From a virus, in the IMG/VR virus record IMGVR_UViG_3300048908_000156, positions 1 to 54,284 of that record: a stretch of DNA of 54,284 nt; one strand, written 5' to 3'. The notes beneath the pieces are model-generated. The model was not told the origin of the DNA, did not search any database, and saw only the letters and a list, made by a program, of their open reading frames with translations. This document shows positions 1 through 42,507 of this stretch, piece after piece (position 1 is the stretch's first letter; each line of letters begins with the position of its first letter). A program made the translations under genes and the position numbers.

Positions 1-3000
1 AGCAGTACCTCCGGCGCCTCGACAACCGGATCGTGAACAAGACCTCCGGCACCACCGGCGGCTCCACTCCGGCGGGACCGGCGGGCGGCGACCTGGCGGG
101 CTCCTACCCGAACCCGACGCTCTCCCCGGCGACCCGTTCGTCCCTCATGGTCGATGTCCTGGACGAGAGCGTGAGCAAGGTCGTTGACGCCGGAGTCCTC
201 GACTTCATCGGAGCCGGGGTGACCGTCGTGCCGGGCGCCGCCGGGACCGCTCAGGTGAACATCCCCGGTGGCAGCGGCGGCGGCACCGGAGGCACCCCGG
301 CGATCCACATGCGCCGCGCTCTGACAGGCCAGTCGATCCCGACCGCCGTCGTGACCACCCTCGCGTTCACTGTCAGCCAGGACGACGTGGGCGGGATCAT
401 CTACAACTCCTCGACCCGCGAGTTCATAGTGCCGGTGGACGGCACCTACGTCCTGGCTGTCGGCCTCCAGTTCAACGGACTGACCGGCCCGGGCGTCCGG
501 CGGGTAGCGATCATCCAGGTCAACGGCGGCACCATCGGTCAGCAAGACCTCCACTCCGCCGACAACTCGGTGATCGGCCCGAGCATCGCCACCGCGAAGG
601 TGCTCACTGCTGGCGACCGGGTGACGTTCGCGGCGTTCCAGAACTCCGGGTCAAGCGTCGGGCTGAACACGAACGTCGCGACCAACTGGGGGTCGGTGAC
701 GAAGGCTGACGGGATCAAGGGCGACGCTGGAGCCACCGGCCCCGCAGGTGCGACCGGTGCGACGGGCGCGAAGGGCGACACCGGCGCGACCGGGCTCACT
801 GGAGCCCAGGGCCCGGCTGGCGCGACGGGCGCGACCGGCGCCCAGGGCCCGCAGGGCGTGAAGGGCGACTCGGGTCCGCAGGGTGTCCCGGGCGCCGACT
901 CCACAGTCCCGGGCCCCGCTGGCCCGACTGGTCCGAGCGGCCCGGCCGGAGCGGACTCCACCGTCCCAGGTCCGCAGGGCCCGAAGGGCGACCCCGGGGC
1001 GACCGGCGCCACGGGTCCGCAGGGACCGGCGGGTGCTGCCTCCACCGTCCCAGGCCCAGCCGGGCCCACCGGAGCGCAGGGCCCGAAGGGTGACACCGGA
1101 GCCACCGGAGCGGCCTCGACCGTCCCAGGCCCTCAGGGACCGCAAGGCCCAGCCGGTCCCACCGGAGCCGCCGGTGCACCCGGGAACATCCTGTCGGTCT
1201 CCGACGAGGGCACCGGCGTGGTCGCCGCGCCGACGATCCTCGACTTCGTAGGCGCTGGGGTCACCGTCACCCCCGGCGTCGCAGGGACCGCGCAGGTCAA
1301 CATCGCCGGTGGTGGCGGCAGCGGCGGACCCGGCTCGACGCCCGCGATCACGATGCGCCGCACCTCCAACGGCCAGTCGATCCCCAACGCCGCAGCGACC
1401 GTGCTCGCGTTCCCCAACGGGCAGGACGACGTGGGCGGGATCATCTACAACTCCTCCACCCGCGAGTTCGTGGTCCCCGAGGCAGGCACCTACTCGCTGT
1501 CGGTCGGCATCCAGTTCAACGGCCTCACCGGAACCGGGTTCCGCCGTACCGGGATCATCGCCGTCAACGGCGGCACCATCAGCCAGCAAGACCTCCACTC
1601 CTCCGACAATGCCGTCATCGGGCCGAGCATCCAGACGATGAAGGTGCTGGCCGCCGGGGACAAGGTGACGTTCGCTGCGTTCCAGAACTCCGGGTCGAGC
1701 ATCGGACTCAACGCGAACCCGGCGTTCAACTGGGGTGCCGTCACGAAGGTGGACGGGATCACCGGAGCCACCGGCGCGACCGGCGCCCAGGGTGTGCAGG
1801 GTCCGCAAGGGACGACGGGCGCGACCGGTGCCCAGGGCATCCAGGGCCCTCAGGGCGCGACCGGCTCAACCGGTGCGACCGGCCCGCAAGGTCCGACTGG
1901 AGCCGACTCCACGGTCCCGGGCCCGGCCGGGCCGAAGGGCGACACCGGAGCGCAGGGCATCCAGGGGCCGACTGGCCTGACCGGGGCCACGGGCCCCACT
2001 GGAGCGGACTCGACGGTGCCCGGCCCGCAGGGCCCGAAGGGTGACCCGGGGGTCGCCGGGCCGACAGGTCCGACCGGGGCCACGGGAGCGACGGGAGCGG
2101 ACTCCACGGTGCCGGGACCCGCCGGTGCGCCGGGTGCGCAGGGCCCGAAGGGCGACACCGGGACGACCGGGGCGACGGGTCCCTCTGGAGCCGTCGGCCC
2201 GCAAGGCCCAGCAGGTGCCGACTCCATCGTCCCGGGACCCACCGGCCCGCAAGGTCCAGCAGGTGCGACCGGCGCGGCAGGCGCGACCGGCGCGAAGGGC
2301 GACCCGGGCGCGACCGGGCCCGCAGGTGCCGACTCCACGGTTCCCGGCCCCGCCGGTCCAGCAGGAGCGACGGGCCCGGCTGGTGCGGACTCCACGGTGC
2401 CGGGTCCCCAGGGCCCAGCGGGCGTGAAGGGCGACACCGGCGCCGCCGGAGCGACCGGGCCCACCGGCCCAGCCGGAGCCGCCTCCACCGTGCCCGGCCC
2501 GGCAGGTCCGACCGGTCCAGCAGGTACGCCGGGTGCGACCGGCTCGACGGGCCCAGCAGGTCCGACTGGCCCGGCGGGAGCCGACTCCATCGTGCCCGGT
2601 CCCGCTGGCCCGGCTGGAGCGAAGGGCGACCCAGGCGCGACGGGCCCCGCAGGTGCAACCGGCTCAACGGGTCCAGCGGGTCCGACCGGTCCCGCTGGCG
2701 CGGCCTCCACCGTCCCGGGCCCGGCAGGCCCCACCGGTGCGAAGGGTGACACCGGAGCCGCTGGAGCCGCTGGTGCGACCGGCGCCCAGGGGCCGAAGGG
2801 TGACCCGGGCGCGACCGGCGCGGCAGGTACGCCGGGCGCGACGGGCGCGACGGGCAGCCAAGGTCCGCAAGGTGTCCAAGGCCCAGCCGGGCCGACTGGT
2901 GCCACCGGCCCGCAGGGTCCGGCAGGCACTCCGGCCCCGACTCCGACTGTCCAAGCGCAACGCCGGACCACCTCCGCCGGGCAGTCGATTCCCACCGGAG

Positions 3001-3368
3001 TCGTCTCGGCGGTCAAGTTCGAGATTGTGGACGACAACGTGGGCGGCATCACCTACGCCAACGGCGTCTGGACGGTCCCCGAGGCAGGCTTCTACCTGCT
3101 GACGATGAACGTGACCTACACGGCGGCAGCGTCCGGCGGAACCCGACGCACCGCCACCATCCAGGTCAACACGGGCACCATCGTCCAGGTCGATGCCCAG
3201 TCCACCGCCGGGCAGATTCTCGGTCCCGCCGCGATGGCCACGAAGTTGCTGGCCGCCGGGGATGGGATCACCTTCGCCACGTTCCAGAACTCCGGGGCCG
3301 CGCTGGCTCTGAGCGCGAACGCGGCTTTCAACTCGGCCTCGATCACGAAACTGAGTGGTCCGACCTAG
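1..3368 (+). CDS. Collagen-like tail fibre with three C1q-like heads (5' end at 54260)
   Basis: Probable receptor-binding tail fibre or minor tail protein. The frame is open from base 1 and joins the ORF that begins at the ATG at 54260, so the full protein should be about 1,130 residues; the first in-window start is the GTG at 33. The N-terminus has the [12 protein letters not shown] motif common in phage fibres. Three related beta-rich domains of about 135 residues (nt about 300-720, 1340-1758 and 2941-3361), each with a GQSIP...DDVGGI...FQNSG pattern, resemble C1q/TNF-like trimeric heads. Between them lie long Gly-X-Y collagen-like tracts (about 720-1190 and 1760-2935) studded with [11 protein letters not shown]-type modules. 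It lies downstream of the minor tail genes across the junction. Collagen tracts of this kind vary in length by recombination, so assembly errors are possible here. Confidence 0.9.
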
Positions 3369-4490: not shown

Positions 4491-5023
4491 TCCGAACCAT
4501 CCTCGGCTTCACCGTCTCCGGTGCCCTCGCCACCGGAGCCCTCCTGCTCGCCGCGACGGGGCCCCAGCCGTCGGCGTCCGCCAGTCCTCCACAGGTCACG
4601 ACGACTGTCAACGTGCCCGGCCCGACTGGACCGCCTGGCCCGGCTGGCCCGCAGGGACCGCCCGGAGTGGGTACGAGAGGTGCGCCCGGCCCTCCGGGTC
4701 CAGCAGGGTCGTCAGGAGGGTCGGGCCCACCCGGCCCGTCGGGCCAGAGCATCACTGGGCCGTCCGGCCCGGCGGGTCCACCGGGCGTGAACGGCAGCCC
4801 CGGCAGACGAGGCGGAAGGGGCCCTAGAGGCGAGCGAGGCCCGAGTGGCATCCCGGGTCAGCCGGGGGTGGAGGGCCCGCGAGGCCGCCGTGGACCGCCG
4901 GGACCGGCCCCTGCTCCGGGCGCGTGCCCGGTCGGCTTCACGTTCACGACGGTCGCGGTGCACCAGAGGGCTCCGGTTGACCGGGACCTCGTGGTCGCGG
5001 TGTGCGTCCAGGACGGGCAGTGA
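4487..5023 (+). CDS. Secreted collagen-like protein
   Basis: 178 residues from a GTG that overlaps the previous stop (GTGA). The N-terminus looks like a signal peptide (hydrophobic residues about 5-24, then an ASASP-like cleavage region). Residues about 44-145 are collagen-like Gly-X-Y repeats rich in Pro, with a basic stretch ([13 protein letters not shown]). The C-terminal 35 residues contain two cysteines (ACPVGFTF and VAVCVQD), possibly forming a disulfide. It probably acts outside the cytoplasm or on the virion; no precise role is recognisable. Confidence 0.75.
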
Positions 5024-17232: not shown

Positions 17233-17459
17233 CGAGGCCCCTCCAGGTGAGCACCCGCTGGAGCCCGTGTCCGCCGCCGGACTGGGAGCCCGGCGGCGTG
17301 CTCCACGCCCGCCCGACGCTGGGCTCCGACAAGGCCCTGTGCGAGACCGACGGCCCCGAGGTCCCCGACGGCGCGGTGGCCCTGGTGCTGGACGGCGCCG
17401 GACCCGACGAGCGCGCCGAGGTCACCTGCCCCGAGTGCCGAGCCTGGATGCGCGCATGA
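17229..17459 (+). CDS. Small TCxxC-type zinc-ribbon protein
   Basis: 76 residues from a GTG. It has a single Cys (ALCETDGPEV) followed about 40 residues later by EVTCPECRAWM. This Cys ... TCxxC layout recurs in small proteins at 22262, 35397 and 37454, suggesting a paralogous family in this genome. Function unknown. Confidence 0.6.
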   Translation: MTRPLQVSTRWSPCPPPDWEPGGVLHARPTLGSDKALCETDGPEVPDGAVALVLDGAGPDERAEVTCPECRAWMRA

Positions 17460-17770
17460 GCCTCCTGACGCCCGAGGAGGTGGAGCGGGCCCTCCGGTTC
17501 ATCGAGGCTCAGGACTGGGTGTTCGCCAAGACCGTCCCCGAACAGCCGCACTGGTACGTCATGGCGTTCGCCACGACCGACCGAGACGAGTACGGCTGGT
17601 TCGCTGACCTCATCCGCGAGTGCGGGACGCTCCGCCGGTGGAAGGTGCCCGACACCGGACGCTGGCTGTCCTACCGCTACCTGACCCTCGACGGCTGGGA
17701 CTACTGGCACATCGCCCGGGGTGGACCGCCCTCCATGAACCGCCGACACGCGCTGCCCGTCGAGGAGTGA
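17456..17770 (+). CDS. Conserved hypothetical protein (FIExQDWVFAKT family)
   Basis: 104 residues. The pattern RFIEAQDWVFAKTVPEQPHW then FADLIRECG and YLTLDGWDYWHI ... MNRR belongs to a conserved family seen in phages and some bacteria, with invariant Trp, His and Arg residues that suggest ligand or nucleic-acid binding. No activity is established to my knowledge. Confidence 0.65.
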   Translation: MSLLTPEEVERALRFIEAQDWVFAKTVPEQPHWYVMAFATTDRDEYGWFADLIRECGTLRRWKVPDTGRWLSYRYLTLDGWDYWHIARGGPPSMNRRHALPVEE

Positions 17771-22879: not shown

Positions 22880-23440
22880 CTAGAGCCAGGGGTCCTCGAA
22901 CGAGGGCGACGACCACGACGCGGCCTGCCAGTGCCCGACCTGGGAGGGCTCGTCGGTGCGGTGCTGCACCAGGCTGGGTGCGTGGAGCCAGTACCGGAGA
23001 CGACGCTCCCGCAGGAAGTCCGCCACCCCGAGGTCGAACAGGAGCCCCGGCATCGTCCACGAGCCGTAGTGCTCCACCACCGCCGGAGCCAGAGCCCCGG
23101 GCAGGTACCAGCACTGCGCGTTCACGAACGTCCGGCCCGCCTGCCACCGGGAGCCGGTCGTCAGGTCCGCCTTGCGACGGCTGAACATCTGCACCACCGA
23201 GCCCGGCGCCTCAGCGACGGCCGCCGCGACCTTGGCCTGCCAGTCGCGGGTGAGGATCACGTCGTCCTCCAGGTGCACCGCATCCCGGTCACCCTGGACC
23301 CGCATCGCGCCCACGAAGTTCCCTCGGCCGTCCTTGGCCCGGTCGATGCACCACACCGCGTCCGGCACCCTCCGGGCGAGGTAGCCGTGCAGGTGCTCAC
23401 GTTGGGGGACCGCCCGGATCACGACGAGCACTCCAGCCAC
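22880..23440 (-). CDS. Putative glycosyltransferase
   Basis: 186 residues from a GTG, transcribed away from the modification operon. The LEDDVIL motif (57-63) preceded by DRDAVH is a DxD-like metal/nucleotide-sugar site. The C-terminal PSLVQHRTDEPSQVG and SWSSPSFEDP resemble small phage and lipooligosaccharide-type glycosyltransferases. Its acceptor is unknown. Because it adjoins the ParB/methyltransferase/PAPS-reductase/dioxygenase run, modified DNA bases are one candidate; a virion or host glycan is another. Confidence 0.65.
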   Translation of the reverse strand: MAGVLVVIRAVPQREHLHGYLARRVPDAVWCIDRAKDGRGNFVGAMRVQGDRDAVHLEDDVILTRDWQAKVAAAVAEAPGSVVQMFSRRKADLTTGSRWQAGRTFVNAQCWYLPGALAPAVVEHYGSWTMPGLLFDLGVADFLRERRLRYWLHAPSLVQHRTDEPSQVGHWQAASWSSPSFEDPWL

Positions 23441-23450
23441 GCTAGACCCC

Positions 23451-23456
23451 TAGACT
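23451..23456 (+). promoter_or_regulatory. Leaderless-type -10 (TAGACT) for the modification operon
   Basis: TAGACT ends seven bases before the GTG at 23464, with no ribosome-binding site between. This matches the spacing of other class B sites in the genome. No clear -35 was found. Confidence 0.5.
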
Positions 23457-23463
23457 CCCGTCC

Positions 23464-24051
23464 GTGACGTACCCCGTTCACCTCCACGACGCGATGGTCC
23501 CCCTGCTCGTGGCCGCTGACCGGCTGACCCCGAACCCCGAGAACCCGCACGACGGCGACTCGGACGCCGTGCTCGACTCCCTGATGGTCAACGGCTGCTA
23601 CCGGCCCGTCTACGCCCGCAAGGACGGCACGATCCTGGCCGGGCACACCCTCTACGCCGCGCTCCTCGAAGCCGGAGCCACCGAGGTCCCGGTGCTGTGG
23701 GTCGATGCCGACGACGAGGCCACCTCCCGCCGGATCATGCTCGGGGACAATCAGGTCGCCCGGCTCGGGCAGGACGACCCGGCACAGGTCGTCACCCTGC
23801 TCCGAGCCCTCGACTCAGAGGACAGCCTGGTCGGCACCGGCTACACCGCCGCCGACCTCGCCGCCCTGGAGGCCATGCTCGCCCGGCTCGGAGACACACC
23901 CCTGGAACCCGAGACCGGCACCGTCCGGGTCCTGCTGGAGTTCACGCCCGTCCAGCACCGGCTCTGGGCGCCCCTGGAGGAACGCGTCAGGGCCAGGGGC
24001 GTCGGGCTGGAGGCCGGTCTCCTCGCCGCGCTCACCGAGCACGCCGGATGA
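23464..24051 (+). CDS. ParB-like protein 1 (IbrB/YbdM-type candidate)
   Basis: 195 residues from a GTG. The ParB/sulfiredoxin-type N-domain is visible as LTPNPENPHDGDSDAVLDSL, RPVYARKDGTILAGH and GATEVPVLWVDADDEATSRR followed by LGDNQVARLG. The usual GxxR box reads AGHTLY, lacking the Arg that ParB 2 (26672) keeps. It overlaps the methyltransferase gene by 4 bases and is two genes before a PAPS-reductase-like protein. ParB-like and PAPS-reductase-like proteins also pair in bacterial YbdM/YbdN (IbrB/IbrA). It may bind DNA or act as a nucleotide-dependent enzyme. Confidence 0.75.
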   Translation: MTYPVHLHDAMVPLLVAADRLTPNPENPHDGDSDAVLDSLMVNGCYRPVYARKDGTILAGHTLYAALLEAGATEVPVLWVDADDEATSRRIMLGDNQVARLGQDDPAQVVTLLRALDSEDSLVGTGYTAADLAALEAMLARLGDTPLEPETGTVRVLLEFTPVQHRLWAPLEERVRARGVGLEAGLLAALTEHAG

Positions 24052-24713
24052 GCGACTACGACCGGCTCGCCGCCGACTACGACCAGCACTTCACCCGCCC
24101 CGTGGACGCCTGGGAGGACGAACGCCTCGCCCGAGCCCTCGGCGCCCTGGTCCGAGGCCGCCGCGTCATCGACCTCGGCTGTGGCACCGGCTGGCTCCTC
24201 GATCACTGCGAGCCCGGCACCTACACCGGCGTGGACGCCTCGGCCCCGATGCTCGCCCGGCTGATGGAGAAGCACCCCGACGTGGAGGTGGTCAAGGCGA
24301 CCGTCGGCACAGCCGGGTGGGTCGATGAGGTGATGGCCGGGGCCCGGAGCCCCGCGAACGTCGTCACCGCGACCTGGGCCGCCCACGAGTTCCTGCCCCT
24401 CACGAGGGTGCTGTTCGGCATCCGCCGCCTACTGGAGCCCGGCGGCCTCGTACTCCTCCACGGCCAGGCACCCCGCTACCGGAGACGACGGCACTACATC
24501 CTCGACGGCAACGACGACCGGCAGGGCTTCCGGCAGTGGACCCCCGACCGCTGCGAGTCAGCCGGAACCGTCGCCGGGCTCACCTGGGCCGGAGCCACCG
24601 GTACCGGAGCGACCCCGGATGTGCTAGCACAGTCCCACCGGCTCTGGCACGCCGGACTCCGCGTACCGCCCCGCTGGCACTACGCGTTCCTCGCAGCCTG
24701 GAGGCTCCCATGA
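24048..24713 (+). CDS. Class I SAM-dependent methyltransferase
   Basis: 221 residues. YDRLAADYDQHF at the start and VIDLGCGTGWLLD (motif I), YTGVDASAPMLARL (motif II) and an LLEPGGLVLLHG strand are typical of UbiE/Methyltransf_11-type enzymes. It lacks the PC or (N/D)PPY motifs of ordinary DNA methyltransferases, so the substrate may be a modified nucleotide side chain or small molecule. It overlaps both neighbours by 4 bases, so it is co-expressed with the ParB-like and PAPS-reductase-like proteins. Confidence 0.82.
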   Translation: MSDYDRLAADYDQHFTRPVDAWEDERLARALGALVRGRRVIDLGCGTGWLLDHCEPGTYTGVDASAPMLARLMEKHPDVEVVKATVGTAGWVDEVMAGARSPANVVTATWAAHEFLPLTRVLFGIRRLLEPGGLVLLHGQAPRYRRRRHYILDGNDDRQGFRQWTPDRCESAGTVAGLTWAGATGTGATPDVLAQSHRLWHAGLRVPPRWHYAFLAAWRLP

Positions 24714-25858
24714 GCGGACGGACCAAGACCGGCACCGACGTGTTCACCGCCGCCCTCGAACGACTGCTGGAGCAATACTCCGCCGGGCACCGCGTCGTGG
24801 TCGCCTTCTCCTCCGGCAAGGACTCCACCTGCGTCCTCGAACTCGCGTGCATCGCCGCCCGCATGACCGACCGGCTCCCCGTGGAGGCCGTGATCAGGGA
24901 CGAGGAGATACTGCTCCCCGGCTCCTACGAGTACGCCGACCGCATCCACCAGCGCGACGACATCCGGCTCCACCACCTCGTAGCCAACCAACCCATCATC
25001 AACGCATTCAACCGAGCCGAGCCCTACTGGTGGGTGTTCGACCCCCTCCTAGACCCCGACGACTGGGTACGCCAACCCCCGCCGTACGCCGAGCACATCC
25101 CCGAAATCAACATCGAAGCCATGATCACGAAGCAGAGGTTCCCCATAGACGAGACGGCCGGACAGCACCTCCTCTCAGCCCAGGGCCTCAGAGTCCAAGA
25201 GAGCCGAGGCCGCATGTACGGCCTGTTCTCCTCCGGCGGCTACATGACGAAGCCCCACCACCTCACCGGCGTCTACGGCTGCCGCCCCATCTACGACTGG
25301 AAAGACGGCGACGTATGGCGAGCAATCCAAACCAACGGATGGGACTACAACGGCGCCTACAACACCATGTTCCGCCACGGAATCCCGCCCCACCGGCTCC
25401 GCATCGGACCCCCCTCGATGAACGTCCACAGTGTCGAGGAACTGCGCTACGCCTCCCAGGCATGGCCTCAGTGGTGGGACCGGGTGTGCCGACGCCTCCC
25501 CGGCATGAGGCAGGCCGCCATGTTCGGGACCAGGGTCGTCAAGGCCGACCGCCGAGCCGGTGAGTCGTGGCAGGTGACGTTCGAGCGGGAGTGTGTCGAG
25601 AAGGCCCCGGAGTGGATCGCTGAACGGGCAGTCAAGGCGAGGGACCGGATGCTGTCCTCCCACGCCCGGCACGCGACCACACCTCTCCCGGAGCGGGAGT
25701 CGTGCCGCACCTGCTCCGGCAACCTCGGCTCCTGGATGGGCCTGACCCGCGCCCTGTACGGAGGGGACCCGTTCAGCATGAAGGCCACGATCCTGCCGTA
25801 CGTGGACCCCGAACGCTTCCGACCCGGCGCCGGGAACTGGAACGGCCACCCCGGATGA
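24710..25858 (+). CDS. PAPS-reductase-family PP-loop enzyme (IbrA/YbdN-like)
   Basis: 382 residues. The PP-loop VVAFSSGKDSTCVLEL (SSGKDST at 34-40) is the ATP-pyrophosphatase site of the PAPS reductase/DndC superfamily. Further conserved parts are EILLPGSYEYADRIHQRDDI, GVYGCRPIYDWKDGDVWRAI and a C-terminal CRTCSGNLG. The YDWKDGDVWRAI phrase is found in phage and IbrA-type members. The reaction is unknown; these enzymes adenylate and often move sulfur. It sits between the methyltransferase and the dioxygenase, suggesting work on the same substrate. No DndA, B, D or E partners are present. Confidence 0.78.
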   Translation: MSGRTKTGTDVFTAALERLLEQYSAGHRVVVAFSSGKDSTCVLELACIAARMTDRLPVEAVIRDEEILLPGSYEYADRIHQRDDIRLHHLVANQPIINAFNRAEPYWWVFDPLLDPDDWVRQPPPYAEHIPEINIEAMITKQRFPIDETAGQHLLSAQGLRVQESRGRMYGLFSSGGYMTKPHHLTGVYGCRPIYDWKDGDVWRAIQTNGWDYNGAYNTMFRHGIPPHRLRIGPPSMNVHSVEELRYASQAWPQWWDRVCRRLPGMRQAAMFGTRVVKADRRAGESWQVTFERECVEKAPEWIAERAVKARDRMLSSHARHATTPLPERESCRTCSGNLGSWMGLTRALYGGDPFSMKATILPYVDPERFRPGAGNWNGHPG

Positions 25859-26106
25859 CCGAGTTGGCGTGCGAGTTCGTAGGCGGCCCGCAGGACGGGG
25901 AGGTGCTGATGATCCGTCCAGGCCGGGACGGGTGCCCGGAGGGTGAGGTGTTCGTGATGGGACTGCTCCACGATCCCGCGACCTGGCGTGAGTCCGCTGC
26001 TGCCACGAGTCCGACTGAGGTCGCCACCGTCAGGCTCGTGTACCGGCGTGACTCGATCAGCGACGACTCCCACCGCTGGCGCTACCTGTTCGGAGGCGAG
26101 TCGTGA
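25855..26106 (+). CDS. Small conserved phage protein (GGPxDG type)
   Basis: 83 residues from the ATG at 25855, overlapping the previous stop. CEFVGGPQDGEVLMI near the start and VYRRDSI...RWRYLFGG at the end follow the pattern of a small beta-rich protein common in phages. No activity is known. Coupled to the dioxygenase gene by GTGA. Confidence 0.62.
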   Translation: MTELACEFVGGPQDGEVLMIRPGRDGCPEGEVFVMGLLHDPATWRESAAATSPTEVATVRLVYRRDSISDDSHRWRYLFGGES

Positions 26107-26675
26107 CCGTCACCCCCAACGACTACGTGATGCGCGACGACGACCGCGAGGTCCCGCTCCTCTGGGTCGCGTCACTGCTGGACCGGCTCGACGGCATCCC
26201 GCTCCCCGACACCACCGACGAGACCCTGGCCCGGCTCGGTGTCACCGGCCGGAGCCGCCTCGTCCGCTCCTGGGGCCACAACGACGAGACCGGCGTCCAC
26301 TGGCTCCTCACCCGGGGCGGCACCCCCGTGCACACCGACCGCGCCTACCTCCGCTACACCCACCAGATCGTGCTCCGCAACGACGGCACCCGCATCAGGG
26401 GCCACCCGAGGTTCGACCCCGAGGACGAAGCCGACTGGCCGCCGCCCCTCGCACCCGGTGCGTTCTACTGCCTCGACACGCACTCGCCCCACCAGGGCGC
26501 ACCCGACCCCCGGCTCCCGCAGGAGCCCGCCCGGGTCAAGGTCGTCGTGGCCGTGGACCGCGACCACCCGATGCGCCCGGAGGAGGCTTACCCTCTGCTC
26601 CACACCTACCTCCACCGGCAACTCACCGACGACCCCATGACCACCCGACCGCCCCGATGGAAGGAACACGCATGA
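26103..26675 (+). CDS. 2-oxoglutarate/Fe(II)-dependent dioxygenase-like protein
   Basis: 190 residues from a GTG. The double-stranded beta-helix signature is visible: H77-T-D79 in GGTPVHTDRAYLRYTHQIVL, a distal His in FYCLDTHSPHQGA (H127 or H130), and R144/K146 in ARVKVVVAVD as candidate 2-oxoglutarate contacts. Such enzymes hydroxylate proteins, nucleic-acid bases or small molecules. The neighbours (glycosyltransferase, methyltransferase, PP-loop enzyme, ParB proteins) resemble phage DNA base-modification gene sets with TET/JBP-type oxygenases, but this sequence is not clearly TET/JBP. Confidence 0.7.
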   Translation: MTVTPNDYVMRDDDREVPLLWVASLLDRLDGIPLPDTTDETLARLGVTGRSRLVRSWGHNDETGVHWLLTRGGTPVHTDRAYLRYTHQIVLRNDGTRIRGHPRFDPEDEADWPPPLAPGAFYCLDTHSPHQGAPDPRLPQEPARVKVVVAVDRDHPMRPEEAYPLLHTYLHRQLTDDPMTTRPPRWKEHA

Positions 26676-27454
26676 GCCCTCGCGCCCCGAAGGGCACCGC
26701 CGTAGTCGAGAAGCAGGCCGAGGCCCTGACCACCCTCGCCATCGAGTACGTGAGCCCCGACAGCATCCAGCCCAACGACTACAACCCGAACCGGCAGAAC
26801 GAACACGAGTTCCTGCTCCTGTGCAAGTCGATCCGGGAGGACGGCTTCACCCAGCCCGTCATCGTCGGCTCGGACGGCAAGATCGTGGACGGCGAGCACC
26901 GGTGGCGAGCCGCACAGGAGGTCGGGCTCACCAGCATCCCCATCGTCCGAGTCCCGATGGAGGGAGCCCAGGCCCGCATCGCCACGCTGCGACACAACCG
27001 GGCCCGAGGCTCCGAGGACTTGGAACTGTCCGTCGAGGTGCTCCGCGACCTGGAGCGGCTCGGAGCCCTCGACTGGGCGGCCGACTCACTGGACCTGTCC
27101 GACAAGGAACTGGAGCGGCTGCTCGCGGACATCCCGGCACCCGAGGCCCTGGCGGCGGAGGAGTTCACCGACGCGTGGGTGCCCGGTGTCACCGGCCAGG
27201 AGGGCTCCACCCTGCCCGGCAACGCTGACGCCACCCCCAACGCCCGGGAGGCGATCAAGGCCCGGGAGAAGCGCATGGCCGACGCCAAGACCGCCGAGGA
27301 GCGGTCGGCGGCCGCCCGGGACAAGTCCGTCTACTCCGTCTACCTCCAGTTCGCTGACGACGAGGCCGACATCGTGCGCCGTGCTCTCGGAGACCAGCCC
27401 GCGTCCCGGCTGCTCGACCTGGCCCGCGACTGGTGCGCCGCGAACCCCGAGTAG
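26672..27454 (+). CDS. ParB-like protein 2
   Basis: 260 residues overlapping the dioxygenase stop. The N-terminal ParB/Srx domain is complete: YVSPDSIQPNDYNPNRQNEH, then IREDGFTQPVIVGSDGKIVD, GEHRWRAAQEVG (the GxxR box with Arg) and SIPIVRV. A helical C-terminal part contains an acidic-basic coiled-coil-like segment (AREAIKAREKRMADAKTAEE). ParB-like genes next to terminase are common in actinophages. Its place at the end of the enzyme run suggests a role in DNA modification or packaging-linked DNA marking. Confidence 0.78.
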   Translation: MSPRAPKGTAVVEKQAEALTTLAIEYVSPDSIQPNDYNPNRQNEHEFLLLCKSIREDGFTQPVIVGSDGKIVDGEHRWRAAQEVGLTSIPIVRVPMEGAQARIATLRHNRARGSEDLELSVEVLRDLERLGALDWAADSLDLSDKELERLLADIPAPEALAAEEFTDAWVPGVTGQEGSTLPGNADATPNAREAIKAREKRMADAKTAEERSAAARDKSVYSVYLQFADDEADIVRRALGDQPASRLLDLARDWCAANPE

Positions 27455-27457
27455 CCC

Positions 27458-28027
27458 GTGACGGACGGCCCGGACGAGCCGGAGCGGCCGTCACTCGAAG
27501 GCGTCCCAGTCCAGCCGGGCGGGACGGGCGGGAACAACCCCGGCGGCGCGAACGGCGCCTCTGAGGCGGCCGCCGTCAGGGGGAACCGGGCCCTCGAACT
27601 CCGCATGGCCGGAGCCTCGTACTCCCAGATCGCCACCGCCCTCGGCTTCGCTGACCGGGGTGCTGCTCACCACGCCGTCCAGAACGCGCTCGCCCGGGAC
27701 AACGAGGTCAACGCCGACCTCCGCGACGAGTACCGCACCCTCCAACTCGCCCGCACCGAGCGGATGATCCGAGGCATCTGGACTCAGGCCATCGGCGGCG
27801 ACGGCCCCGCCTACGACCGGGTACTCCGCACCCTCGACCGGCAGGCGAAACTGATCGGCCTGGACGCCCCGGTCCAGATCAACGTCACCGACGAGGCCCG
27901 GGCTCGGCTGACCGCCATGCTCGACCAACTGGAGGCCGAGGTCGTCAAGGGTGAGGTGCTGGAGGCCCACGACGAGCCGGAGCCCATACCGATCATCTGG
28001 GAGCCCGACGATGACCCGGGTCGCTGA
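27458..28027 (+). CDS. terS: Terminase small subunit
   Basis: 189 residues from a GTG. After a Pro/Gly-rich N-terminus, residues 45-75 form the DNA-binding helix-turn-helix (RMAGASYSQIATALGFADRG), followed by a helical oligomerisation part with ERMIRGIWTQA and VLRTLDRQAKLIGLDAP, typical of actinophage small terminases. It binds the packaging site and regulates the large subunit, whose gene it overlaps by 17 bases. Confidence 0.82.
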   Translation: MTDGPDEPERPSLEGVPVQPGGTGGNNPGGANGASEAAAVRGNRALELRMAGASYSQIATALGFADRGAAHHAVQNALARDNEVNADLRDEYRTLQLARTERMIRGIWTQAIGGDGPAYDRVLRTLDRQAKLIGLDAPVQINVTDEARARLTAMLDQLEAEVVKGEVLEAHDEPEPIPIIWEPDDDPGR

Positions 28028-29417
28028 GGAGTTCGCCGCCGTCCGGGCCCTCCTCGATGACCCCAACCTCGGCGCCCGCGAGGCCGAACTGCTGGAGACC
28101 CGGCTCCTCTCGATGCACGCGAACATCCGGGAGGCCCTGTGGGAGCCGTACCCGTGGCAGGTCGCCCCGTCTCAGGTTGAGACGCTGGGCGCCTGGCTGA
28201 TGCTGGGTGGACGTGGCACCGGCAAGACCGAGGGTGGAGCGCGCTACCTGAACCGGCACATGATGGGCCCGCCCTGCGACCCGAGGGTGAAGGGCGGCCA
28301 CCGAGCCTCGATCATCGCCCCGACCGTCGGTGACGCCTACGAGTCGTGTGTGACCGGCCCGTCGGGGATCACGACCGTCAACCCGGCCGTCGTGTCCCGG
28401 GGCGGCATCGGAGGCCAACTCGTCCGCTGGCCCAACGGCTCCACCGCCCGCCTGTTCGGCGCCTACACCCCGCAGGACGTGGAGCGACTGAGGGCCGGTG
28501 GCAACCGGTGCATCGTCTGGGCGGAGGAGGTCGCCGCCATGCGCTACCTCGACCAAGCCCTGGAGCACACGAACCTCGGCCTCCGCATCGGGCCCAACCC
28601 GCACTACGTGATGACCACGACCCCGAAGCCGAGGGCCCAGATCAAGGCTCTGATCGCTGACCCGCACACGATCATCACCCACGGCCGCACCTCAGAGGCC
28701 CACAAGTTGGACCCGAGCGTCCGGGCCCGCTACTTCGCGCTCTACGAGGGCACCCGGCTGGGACGGCAGGAACTCGACGCCGAGGTGCTGGATGACGTGG
28801 AGGGCGCCCTGTGGACCTACGCCCTCATCGACGGCGCCCGGGTCCCGGTGGTTCCACCGATGGACCGCATCGTGGTCTCGGTTGACCCGCCCGGCACCAG
28901 CGTGGTCGCGGGCCGGGAGGCCGGGATCGTCGTGGTCGGCCGTGCTGGGGACCAGGCGTACGTCCTGTCCGACCTGTCCGGCGAGTTCACCCCGCACGAG
29001 TGGGGGACCGCCGCCGTCTCCGCGTACCACCGGTGGCAGGCGGACGGGATCGTGGCCGAGACGAACTACGGCGGGGAGATGGTGGTCAGTACCCTCCGGT
29101 CGATTCCTGGGGCCTCCAGCATCCCCATCTACAAGGTGGTCGCCCGGCGGGGGAAGGCTCTGCGAGCCCAGCCCGTCGTGTCCCTCTACGAGCAGGCGAG
29201 GGCACACCACGTCGGGGTCCTGGCCGCCCTGGAGACACAGTTGACCGGCTGGGTGCCGGGAGTGACCGACGAGTCCCCGGATCGGCTCGATGCTCTGGTG
29301 CACGGGATGACGCACCTGATGGTCGTGGGAGGGGAGGCGTCGGTGGCTACTCCTCCGGCTGACCGGCGGGTGAACCGGAGCGCCCGGTCTCAGACGCCGC
29401 GCCGTCGGGCCCGCTGA
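28011..29417 (+). CDS. terL: Terminase large subunit
   Basis: 468 residues from the ATG at 28011. ATPase: Walker A GGRGTGKT (66-73), Walker B CIVWAEE (167-173), coupling motif VMTTTPKP (200-207). The RNase H-like nuclease has VSVDPPG (D292), VAETNYGG (E350) and SPDRLDALVHGM with the last Asp. It packages DNA into the prohead and cuts it. Portal is normally adjacent; here an 8.3-kb block of accessory and lysis genes intervenes. It ends the long transcription unit that begins with ParB 1. Confidence 0.95.
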   Translation: MTRVAEEFAAVRALLDDPNLGAREAELLETRLLSMHANIREALWEPYPWQVAPSQVETLGAWLMLGGRGTGKTEGGARYLNRHMMGPPCDPRVKGGHRASIIAPTVGDAYESCVTGPSGITTVNPAVVSRGGIGGQLVRWPNGSTARLFGAYTPQDVERLRAGGNRCIVWAEEVAAMRYLDQALEHTNLGLRIGPNPHYVMTTTPKPRAQIKALIADPHTIITHGRTSEAHKLDPSVRARYFALYEGTRLGRQELDAEVLDDVEGALWTYALIDGARVPVVPPMDRIVVSVDPPGTSVVAGREAGIVVVGRAGDQAYVLSDLSGEFTPHEWGTAAVSAYHRWQADGIVAETNYGGEMVVSTLRSIPGASSIPIYKVVARRGKALRAQPVVSLYEQARAHHVGVLAALETQLTGWVPGVTDESPDRLDALVHGMTHLMVVGGEASVATPPADRRVNRSARSQTPRRRAR

Positions 29418-39507: not shown

Positions 39508-40903
39508 CCGGCTCTCCACGGCCCTCGGCCGTGAGGCAGCGATCCGCAAGGCCGAGCGGAAGGTCCAGCGTGCGGTGGCTCAGGCGATGGCCGACCTGGC
39601 CGACATCGCCGTGCACGCGCTGGAGCAGTCCGGCATGGACCCGGCGGTGCTGGACACCCGGTGGCCCGACTGGAGCGCCATCGTGGCTGAGCAGGTCGAG
39701 CCGCTGATCGAGGAGGTGTACGTGCAGGCGTACGAGGCGCCGGTCCTGGTGGCCGCCACCTCCAGCCCGGTGAGCCCTGCGAACCTCGCCGCCGTCGGAC
39801 ACCTCGCGTCGGTGCGGAACCGGATGGTCGGAGTCGGGGACGGCGTGTTCGACCTCATCCGAGCCGAACTGACCGTCGGCCGCGACGCCGGTGACAGCAT
39901 CCCGAAACTCGGCAAGCGGGTGGAGGCCACCCTGGCCTCCCAGGGAGCCGCCACTTGGAAGCGTCGTGGAGTGACCGTGGCCCGCACCGAGGTGATCGCC
40001 GCGAACAACGCCGGGTCCCACCAGGCCGCGCTCGGGCAGGCCGACGTGCTGGGAGCCCAGCCCGGCGAGGTCGCCAAGGAATGGCTCGCCACCGCCGACG
40101 CCCGCACCCGTGAGTCCCACCTCGACGCCGACGGCGAGATGGTGCTCGGCATGGACACGCCGTTCCCTGTCGGCGGTGACCTGCTCGCCTACCCCGGCGA
40201 CCCGTCCGGCTCACCGGAGGAGGTCATCAACTGCCGCTGCACGATGCTCTACCACTACCCGGGTGACCCCGACTACCCGGACAACGTGGTCCCCCTCGTC
40301 GGGCCGCCGGACCCGGCCGCCGCCCTCTCCGGGCTAGGCGAGGGGCCGCTGCCGATCAGCATGGACGACGCCTCCCTGGAGTCCGAGGTCGCTGACCTGA
40401 TGGCCCTCGGTGACTTCACGAGCCCACGCCTGTCGGCCCTCACCCGGGAACTCGACGTACGCGACGCCGAGCGCGCCTTCGACAACGCGCCGGTGCTGAC
40501 CGCCGTACCCTCCACCACCGCCGAGCAGGCCGCGCTCAACAAGGTGCTGTTCGGGGACGGTGCTCCACCGACGCCCCGGGCCCGCAAGGTCAGGAGCGCC
40601 GACCAACTGCTGGAGGACGACTACCAGACCTGGGTGCACACGCAGTGGCTCCGCGCCGAGGAGGACACCCGGGGCCACATGATGACGGCCGACGGACTCG
40701 CCAAGGGCTACTCCGCCCCTGACATCATCGGCCGCCGCGTCTCCCCAAAATGGGCGACGCCGGAGTTCCAGGAGTGGCTGGCAGGACCCGGCAACGAGGG
40801 GATGTCCTTCCCTGAGTTCCGGGCCGGGATCATGGACGACAAGCGCGCCCGGCAGGCGAACTGGCGCCGCCGGAACCGAGGTTGGGAGACGGAGTACGGA
40901 TGA
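39500..40903 (+). CDS. MuF-like capsid morphogenesis protein
   Basis: 467 residues, overlapping the portal by 8 bases. After a helical N-terminus, the Mu F-like domain (about 145-255) shows VARTEVIAANNAGSHQAALG, EWLATADARTRESHLDADGE and PEEVINCRCTMLYHYPG. MuF proteins are minor capsid components needed for head assembly and often injected. The C-terminal 200 residues are unlike the family core; they include helices rich in charged residues and end near the protease gene. This extension could be a separate activity, which cannot be named from the sequence. Confidence 0.85.
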   Translation: MVDRLSTALGREAAIRKAERKVQRAVAQAMADLADIAVHALEQSGMDPAVLDTRWPDWSAIVAEQVEPLIEEVYVQAYEAPVLVAATSSPVSPANLAAVGHLASVRNRMVGVGDGVFDLIRAELTVGRDAGDSIPKLGKRVEATLASQGAATWKRRGVTVARTEVIAANNAGSHQAALGQADVLGAQPGEVAKEWLATADARTRESHLDADGEMVLGMDTPFPVGGDLLAYPGDPSGSPEEVINCRCTMLYHYPGDPDYPDNVVPLVGPPDPAAALSGLGEGPLPISMDDASLESEVADLMALGDFTSPRLSALTRELDVRDAERAFDNAPVLTAVPSTTAEQAALNKVLFGDGAPPTPRARKVRSADQLLEDDYQTWVHTQWLRAEEDTRGHMMTADGLAKGYSAPDIIGRRVSPKWATPEFQEWLAGPGNEGMSFPEFRAGIMDDKRARQANWRRRNRGWETEYG

Positions 40904-42507
40904 GCACCGTGACGATGACACGCCGGGACGCCCTCTCGATCATGCGGGCCGGGCACGCCGCCGCTCAGCGGGGCGGGAGCCCGCTGGACTGCCCCTACTC
41001 CCCGAACGGGGACGCAGATGAACGACTCCGCGTGGCCGCCTGGCAGCGCGGGTACACCGGTGGAACCGTCGGCGGAGCCGCCGCACTCGCAGCAGGAGGA
41101 ACGATGTCCGAGACCGTCGCAGATGTCCCGATGGGGACAACCGAGCCCGCCGCCGACCGACCCTGGCACGGCGTACTCGCACCGGAGGGAGTGACTTCCG
41201 GGGACCGCCGCAAGTTCTCACCCGGTGCCCTGACCTGGCGGGACCTCCCGCTGCCCGTGGAGTGGCAGGAGCAGACCGCCCCGGGTCACGACGGCGCGTA
41301 CGTCGTCGGCCGCATCGACACCATCGAGCGGGACGCCGACGGGCTGCTCAACGCGACCGGCGTGTGGCACGACACGCCGGAGGCCGACAAGGCGCACGAC
41401 CTCGTGGACGACCAGATGCTCAGAGGGCTCTCGGTGGAACTCGATGAGGACCCGGAGGCTCCCTGGGTGTCCCACTTCGAGGACGGTGAGGGGAACCCCA
41501 TCGAGGGCGACGACTGGTTCTGGGACGAACTGCTCGGTGAGGGCGACGGCGGTGTGGTCATCGAGGTGGTGGACTCCGGTCGTATCTGCGCGGTGACCCT
41601 GCTCCCGGTGCCCGCCTTCCAGGAGGCGTTCATCGCCAACGATCCCCCGGCTGATGTCCCGGCCGACTGTGACCCCACCGACCCCGAGGGCGACTGCTAC
41701 GACCCGACCGCCGAGCCGGTTGACCAGGGCGCCGCGCTGGAGCCGGTCGCACTGCTGGCCCGGGCCGGGCGAGTCGTCGTGGATCACCGGCTGTTCACCT
41801 ACCCGGAGGCTCTGCGGGAGGGCGCCACCGCCTGCCACGTCGAGTCCGACGGCCGCGTGTTCGGGCACCTCGCGGTGTGGGGGACCTGCCACATCGGCAT
41901 CGAGGGGACGTGCGTGACCCCGCCCTCCACCGCCACCGGGTACGCCCACTTCCTCACCGGGGAGGTCGAGACCGACCTCGGCCCCGTCCCGGTCGGGCAG
42001 ATCACGATGGGCACCGGGCACGCCGATCCCACGCTCGGGCTGCGTGCTGCGGTCGAGCACTACGACGACACCGGGACCGTGATCGCTGACGTGACGGTCG
42101 GGGAGGACGAGACCGGCATCTGGTACTCCGGCCGCATCCGGCCCAGCGTGACCCCGGCCCGGCTGGCCGAGTTCACCGCCGGTGGAGCCCTCTCCGGCGA
42201 CTGGCGCCGGGTGGGAGGGCACCTCGAACTCGTGGCCGCGCTCGCCGTCAACGTCCCCGGCTTCCCGGTGCCCCGGCTCCAGGTGGCCGCCGCCGGGAAC
42301 CGGCAGATGAGCCTCGTCGCCTCCGGTGTCGTCGGCCCCTCCTCGATGGCCTGGCGCACCGGCAACGTGGACGTGGACGCCCTCGTGGCCGCCGTGCTGC
42401 ACAAGATGGATCGCCGGGAGCGGGTGCACCGCCTCACTCGTAGAGTCAAGGGCGACCGAGCCGAGCGGATCGCACGGGCGACCGCCGCCGTCGAGGGGAG
42501 CGAGTGA
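40900..42507 (+). CDS. Capsid maturation protease with RMF-like N-terminal segment
   Basis: 535 residues from the ATG at 40900 (overlap ATGA with MuF). Residues 1-52 (ALSIMRAGHAAAQRGGSPLD, CPYSPNG, VAAWQRGYTGG) resemble ribosome modulation factor: G...A...G...CPY...R..AW..G. The protease domain begins near residue 85 with HGVLAPEGVTSGDRRKFSPG and includes GLSVELDEDPEAPW and a later VTLLPVPAFQEAFI. A second in-frame ATG at 41104, five bases after AGCAGGAGGA, would give a 467-residue protease without the N-segment. The C-terminal half is beta-rich and may be a virion part released by cleavage. Confidence 0.82.
   Translation: MSTVTMTRRDALSIMRAGHAAAQRGGSPLDCPYSPNGDADERLRVAAWQRGYTGGTVGGAAALAAGGTMSETVADVPMGTTEPAADRPWHGVLAPEGVTSGDRRKFSPGALTWRDLPLPVEWQEQTAPGHDGAYVVGRIDTIERDADGLLNATGVWHDTPEADKAHDLVDDQMLRGLSVELDEDPEAPWVSHFEDGEGNPIEGDDWFWDELLGEGDGGVVIEVVDSGRICAVTLLPVPAFQEAFIANDPPADVPADCDPTDPEGDCYDPTAEPVDQGAALEPVALLARAGRVVVDHRLFTYPEALREGATACHVESDGRVFGHLAVWGTCHIGIEGTCVTPPSTATGYAHFLTGEVETDLGPVPVGQITMGTGHADPTLGLRAAVEHYDDTGTVIADVTVGEDETGIWYSGRIRPSVTPARLAEFTAGGALSGDWRRVGGHLELVAALAVNVPGFPVPRLQVAAAGNRQMSLVASGVVGPSSMAWRTGNVDVDALVAAVLHKMDRRERVHRLTRRVKGDRAERIARATAAVEGSE

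Follow-up and report, generated by a model that had tools for sequence, protein, structure and literature searches.

Why should a phage place a PP-loop enzyme, a methyltransferase, an HxD...H protein, a glycosyltransferase and two ParB-like proteins directly ahead of its terminase genes? The question arises at positions 22880-27454 of virus record IMGVR_UViG_3300048908_000156, an uncultured virus of bacteria; the 54,284 bp of this record are referred to below as the window. An earlier note on this DNA had proposed seven genes in the region, and all seven are present (Table 1). Six of them follow one another on the plus strand in the order ParB1, methyltransferase (MT), PP-loop/PAPS-reductase-like protein (PAPSr), a small GGPxDG protein, the HxD...H protein and ParB2. 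They overlap as had been claimed, through five 4-base stop/start junctions, each ATGA or GTGA (ParB1/MT at 24048, MT/PAPSr at 24710, PAPSr/GGPxDG at 25855, GGPxDG/HxD...H at 26103 and HxD...H/ParB2 at 26672), and they do run into the small and large terminase subunit genes (terS and terL), the ParB2 stop codon lying 3 bases ahead of the terS start at 27458. The seventh gene, encoding the glycosyltransferase (GT), lies beside ParB1 as described but is not in the same run of genes: it is divergent, on the minus strand, its start codon separated from the ParB1 start codon by 23 bases, and is therefore not in the same transcript as the operon. The locus thus comprises a compact operon and, facing away from it, the GT gene. 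These genes are grouped again in dozens of further phages, far above chance, and the recurrence suggests that phage DNA is chemically decorated in a way not yet described.

Conservation of the gene set

Related loci (numbered L below) were collected with scans that rely on short exact peptide patterns and so miss divergent relatives; the contigs are fragments, and their genes were called with a simple script. In the gene orders that follow, the HxD...H protein is called the hydroxylase, after the probable identity discussed in the next section. The first two scans of viral contigs returned hydroxylase-MT-PAPSr-ParB2 in L002, hydroxylase-GT-MT-PAPSr-ParBs-terS-terL in L003 and PAPSr-GT-methylase-ParB2-terL in L004; profile scans then added many loci. 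Those with the hydroxylase number 50 distinct loci, nearly all selected by the HxD...H protein alone. PAPSr is at most three genes away in 49 of these; in 44 it is the next gene downstream, for the most part overlapping by 4 bases. A ParB lies close by in 49 loci, a GT in 45 and terL in 35 (contigs are often short). Approached from the other side, 80 loci selected by GT contain PAPSr in 75 cases and ParB in 77. The typical order among relatives is ParB - 98-residue domain - GT - X - PAPSr - ParB - terL, where the slot X, typically one gene, holds the hydroxylase or, in 15 loci, a GNAT acetyltransferase or, in 12, a methyltransferase-like protein with a [D/E]PPW motif. Terminases adjoining hydroxylase cassettes fall into 12 terL clusters at 70%, and the gene set persists in rearranged orders (L002, L003, L007, L104, L105); because gene orders differ between lineages, the set has been kept beyond simple shared ancestry. 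Linkage together with swap-in alternatives is the signature of a tailoring pathway, and reciprocal linkage and the swap-in enzymes strongly support the proposal that these genes work as a single modification cassette.

Within the group closest to the window PAPSr, nine loci have a DNA-methylase-type protein near PAPSr, and N6_N4_Mtase scores above the Pfam cut-off in L063 (PF01555) and L104 (1.2e-8). The latter locus unites MT, PAPSr, an N6_N4 DNA methylase, hydroxylase, GT and ParB2, its PAPSr and hydroxylase frames looking interrupted, possibly through sequencing error. The earlier note had remarked on the absence of a DNA methylase; this holds for the window, which gives no PF01555 match, whereas relatives do have one. 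In L105/L106 a divergent form of the cassette has, alongside the hydroxylase-GT pair, two upstream proteins of unknown family and another PAPSr-like gene that differs from the first. A marine version of the cassette is found at 6639-10038 of L040. A published description of this gene set was not found in the literature searched; the survey of Iyer et al. 2013 (NAR), which lies outside that literature, may list part of it.

The carriers are mostly uncultured phages. Among 23 cassette-bearing records a tyrosine integrase occurs in none and a resolvase in two, and with so few integration genes the carriers look mainly virulent, allowing that records may be fragments. The window terL is ~67% identical at the DNA level to that of Streptomyces phage mu1/6. 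A cultured counterpart is found in Microbacterium phage Hendrix, together with Leaf and Rasputia (Rogerhendrixvirus), in a GT-MT-GNAT-PAPSr-ParB version; like the cassette, these phages have GTs, MT, GNAT and PAPSr (gp158 in Hendrix), here closing the linear record, with ParBx3-terS-terL at the record start in Hendrix, but they differ in that GNAT replaces the HxD...H enzyme and in having extra GTs. Hendrix, on Microbacterium foliorum, offers a lab-tractable relative. Many cultured phages carry bare PAPSr-ParB pairs (IbrA/IbrB), some of them adjoining the terminase. In Streptococcus phage CHPC1148 (L092, 2258-3496) a SNF2-type helicase gene directly precedes IbrA, and a gene of similar size lies ahead of IbrB/IbrA in Flavobacterium phage FPSV-F7 (L094, 1703-2926).

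The cassette proteins

The PP-loop protein (P0004) is probably the core adenylating enzyme of the cassette. It has the PP-loop SSGKDS and lacks the ECGxH motif of CysH; S[GSA]GKDS occurs in 79 of 80 PP-loop homologues, and the ECGxH catalytic cysteine motif in none of the 80. Given that absence, the enzyme most plausibly adenylates its target. PAPS_reduct is its only significant Pfam match, DUF3440 giving none at E<=1, and it is ~23-31% identical to homologues in cultured phages, which are annotated as IbrA.

The HxD...H protein (P0006) belongs to a family that has no database entry: searches of Pfam, PHROGs, NCBIfam and PADLOC gave no significant match, and PHROGs likewise gave none for a marine homologue. 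Neither the window nor the marine version found a match by tblastn among 50,697 INPHARED phages, and a pattern-limited scan of 84,980 species genomes gave two short contigs from metagenome-assembled genomes only. Clustering of the homologues gives 41 groups at an identity of 90% and 29 groups at 70%. Across 40 of them the alignment is invariant at H77, D79, R84, Y85, D94, G100, D125 and H130; a homologue found later (L099) has W at H127 and retains H130, which makes H130 the better third metal ligand, completing the HxD...H triad with H77 and D79. The AlphaFold2 (AF2) model (pLDDT 86) is a double-stranded beta-helix (DSBH/cupin), and its Foldseek neighbours are SptF, AviO1 and cupins, with weak E-values (6e-4 at best). 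R84, although invariant, lies away from the usual position of the basic residue that binds 2-oxoglutarate (2OG). Searched as a profile against PDB sequences, the family matched ectoine synthase alone, at a non-significant E of 1.7. The invariant HxD...H and the modelled fold agree with the earlier description as dioxygenase-like, and the protein is probably an Fe(II)/2OG hydroxylase, although it may instead be a cupin-type metalloenzyme.

The GT is recognised by PHROGs only, and its AF2 model (pLDDT 93) has a GT-A fold with structural matches of probability 1.0, the top PDB folds being mimivirus R655, GnT-I, LH3 and ColGalT1. A DxD-like acidic motif of EDD/EED/QDD type is found in nearly all GT homologues. 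The collection was scanned with a 7-sequence subset of the GT alignment, the 45-sequence alignment being too divergent. The GT is a member of the cassette family, although its gene is divergently oriented in the window.

Two ParB subfamilies are conserved beside PAPSr. In a tree of ParB proteins the one directly downstream of PAPSr is IbrB-type, and ParB2 falls firmly within that group; its identity to the ParB in the same position in L002, L004 and L007 is 54-60%. ParB1, recognised by PHROGs ParB families only, groups with the 'up/dn2' subfamily (GH/DN, mostly zinc-ribbon) on a very long branch, so that its exact place is unsure. Both match the ParB part of phage DNA methyltransferases in PHROGs. 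In L003 (5206-6459), the first ParB after PAPSr has a large cysteine-containing insertion inside ParB_N, possibly an inserted element.

As for the remaining members, an MT homologue adjoins PAPSr in L002 (43%) and in other loci. The GGPxDG protein has no match in Pfam or PHROGs and none among 1549 neighbour proteins of related cassettes; on this basis it is probably an accessory. The 98-residue domain, which has no Pfam or PHROG entry, occurs in 102 related loci, mostly between ParB and GT, and is fused to MT in some (L003, L046, L049). Homologues of the terS-like protein directly precede terL in L003, L070, L075 and L078, and a like-annotated gene is present in Hendrix.

Table 1. Features of the cassette and adjoining genes in the window
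Feature	Coordinates	Strand	Basis
GT-A-fold glycosyltransferase-like protein, LEDD motif	22880..23440	-	phrog_854 'glucosyltransferase' 1e-6; AF2 model
ParB1 (P0002), ParB-like domain of a type that occurs fused to phage DNA methyltransferases, GH/DN motifs	23464..24051	+	PHROG ParB 3e-24; phrog_498 DNA methyltransferase 1.9e-17
MT, class I S-adenosylmethionine (SAM)-dependent, Methyltransf_23/25 type	24048..24713	+	Pfam Methyltransf_23 1.4e-12
PAPSr (P0004), PP-loop ATP-pyrophosphatase, PAPS-reductase-like/IbrA-like	24710..25858	+	PAPS_reduct PF01507 1.4e-8; phrog_2302 1.2e-47
Small GGPxDG protein	25855..26106	+	no family match
HxD...H protein (P0006), double-stranded beta-helix metalloenzyme family without database entry	26103..26675	+	40-sequence alignment; AF2 model
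ParB2 (P0007), IbrB-type, NDYNPN and RHNRARG	26672..27454	+	ParB_N 9.8e-14
Terminase small subunit-like protein (context)	27458..28027	+	phrog_645 3.9e-29, family labelled 'Rnase E'
Terminase large subunit (context)	28011..29417	+	Terminase_6N/6C 7.7e-12 / 2.1e-10
'WxFAKTxPxxPHWYTL...YW' (98-residue) domain homologue, tentative cassette part	17456..17770	+	hmmsearch E 1.3e-17

Substrate, chemistry and competing readings

We favour, at somewhat better than even chances, a modular phage DNA-hypermodification cassette that acts before packaging and is expressed with the packaging genes. Three features make DNA the likeliest substrate: its ParB partners, the occurrence of DNA-methylase-type enzymes in sister cassettes, and the position beside the terminase. 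The earlier suggestion that the phage builds a DNA modification holds as far as a modification cassette is concerned, and these same three features support its DNA target, though only indirectly.

Several known systems resemble the cassette in part. The IbrA/IbrB pair of prophages (E. coli ECOR-9), a PAPS-reductase-like PP-loop protein plus a ParB-like protein, is similar to its core: the two are encoded side by side, in phages frequently adjoining the terminase, just as ParB is beside or near PAPSr in nearly all related loci. It differs in having no GT, hydroxylase or methyltransferase partners, and in that P0004 has no DUF3440 match. Dnd/Ssp phosphorothioation likewise pairs a PP-loop enzyme with a ParB-superfamily protein acting on DNA. 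Its DNA-modifying PP-loop enzyme DndC, which has the ParB-family protein DndB as companion (PMC10853773), is a precedent for a DNA substrate, as is DpdB, a ParB-like ATPase that serves 7-deazaguanine insertion (PMC12839542). The window cassette contains no DndD/DndE/DndA-like gene, however, and Dnd has no tailoring enzymes; membership of the PP-loop protein in Dnd was rejected at a DndC equivalog score of 15.9 bits against a cut-off of 290.4. Phage pyrimidine hypermodification (T4 glucosylated hydroxymethylcytosine, 5-hydroxymethyluracil derivatives, S-B43 carboxymethylcytosine) is similar in using enzymes in series with GT or ligase decorations, and ParBc neighbours have been reported for CmoX (PMC12783734). 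In contrast to those systems, the entry enzyme here would be the PP-loop protein, and no hydroxymethylase, TET/JBP, CmoX or nucleotide kinase was recognised in the window cassette.

We hypothesize that, with ParB1 assisting and NTP bound, the IbrB-type ParB2 loads onto phage DNA and either delivers the DNA or selects sites, whereupon the PP-loop enzyme would spend ATP adenylating a base carbonyl oxygen (or a backbone phosphate) for a nucleophile to replace the oxygen. Such adenylate-and-replace chemistry is that of its tRNA-acting PP-loop cousins TilS and MnmA. The HxD...H enzyme would then hydroxylate the installed group, the GT would add a sugar, and the SAM methyltransferase may cap or diversify the product; in sister phages a GNAT or DNA-methylase-type enzyme in the hydroxylase slot would change what is finally attached. 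DNA so modified would be shielded from restriction or other nucleases until it is packaged. Gene content, gene order, conservation, swap-in alternatives, motifs and folds are what the analysis observed; from these we infer DNA as the substrate, the sequence of reactions, their chemistry and the advantage to the phage. A narrower version, which we offer tentatively and think rather unlikely as it stands, is that the PP-loop enzyme, through adenylation of a ring carbonyl, attaches an amine, an amino acid or sulfur to a base within intact DNA, and that the hydroxylase, GNAT, GT and methyltransferases elaborate the side chain. If true, PP-loop entry would be a DNA counterpart of lysidine/thiouridine chemistry, unlike the pyrimidine-hydroxymethyl and deazaguanine routes, and the bare IbrA/IbrB pairs of many prophages would be its unelaborated form. 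On the broader reading already, this orphan pair, found in many phages, would become central to a modular tailoring pathway whose product can be tested for, and the HxD...H family would gain a context that predicts function.

Several points weigh against a DNA-modifying cassette. We know of no carrier with a known modified base, and no thymidylate-type, hydroxymethylase or nucleotide-pool enzyme was recognised among the window genes examined. The 2OG dependence of the HxD...H enzyme is a prediction, its Foldseek matches mixing 2OG oxygenases with cupins, and the nearest folds to the modelled GT are those of collagen/lysine and glycan transferases, not DNA glucosyltransferases. The window itself encodes long collagen-like repeats. 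Lastly, the IbrA/IbrB pair alone is described as a co-activator of prophage gene expression.

This last point leads to a different reading, in which the PP-loop/ParB pair is a late-gene switch that activates prophage or late genes as IbrA/IbrB is reported to, with the tailoring enzymes placing local marks on DNA or altering the transcription machinery. Naked PAPSr-ParB pairs do lie just ahead of the terminase in cultured phages, where late regulators are found, and several are annotated 'co-activator of prophage gene expression'. A regulator would leave the conserved GT, hydroxylase, MT and GNAT partners unexplained, however, and regulation could still follow from DNA modification; we regard a switch as improbable. 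RNA and protein may also be substrates, though gene context favours them less than DNA. Many PP-loop relatives modify tRNA, and a TilS/MnmA-like enzyme could act on tRNA here, with the GT, MT, GNAT and hydroxylase completing a hypermodified nucleoside whose role would be to shield tRNA or adjust translation. Hendrix, Leaf and Rasputia do have tRNA genes immediately upstream of their cassettes. The window has no tRNA gene, however, and a single tRNA was found in 60 related loci, ~4-5 kb from the cassette, for which reason tRNA linkage was dropped as a general explanation; the ParB and DNA-methylase-type partners also suit DNA better. We consider an RNA substrate unlikely, if by a hair less so than the switch.

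Slightly less likely still is that the cassette hydroxylates and glycosylates collagen-like tail fibres or the capsid, as LH3 or mimivirus enzymes do collagen lysine. The GT folds matched include LH3, ColGalT1 and mimivirus R655, and a tail-fibre-like gene in the window (3-3368) is rich in collagen repeats. Yet likeness to the GT-A fold is generic (TM 0.5-0.6), the cassette is tied to PAPSr, ParB and terminase and not to tail genes, the complete Hendrix has no collagen repeats, and such repeats occur in only 4 of the 23 cassette-bearing records, the window being one of the four; collagen tail-fibre modification was dropped as a general explanation on that count. A second short frame with collagen-like G-X-Y repeats lies at 4619-4921 of the window.

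The Pfam name of the PAPS-reductase-like domain would fit sulfur auxiliary metabolism, in which the gene, as a cysH, boosts host sulfate assimilation beside unrelated neighbours. We regard this as very improbable: with the CysH catalytic motif absent from all 80 PP-loop proteins, sulfate assimilation was rejected, and the near-obligate linkage to ParB, GT and hydroxylase also speaks against it. Papers on viral metagenomes report viral PAPS-reductase genes as cysH auxiliary metabolic genes (PMC8725595). PAPSr genes of the cassette type are likely among those so reported in public viral metagenome annotations, and many such 'cysH' genes may be modification enzymes.

Outside the cassette, a window protein encoded at 40900-42507 weakly matches ribosome modulation factor at its N-terminus (PF04957, with a score below the cut-off) and also has a weak prohead-protease match.

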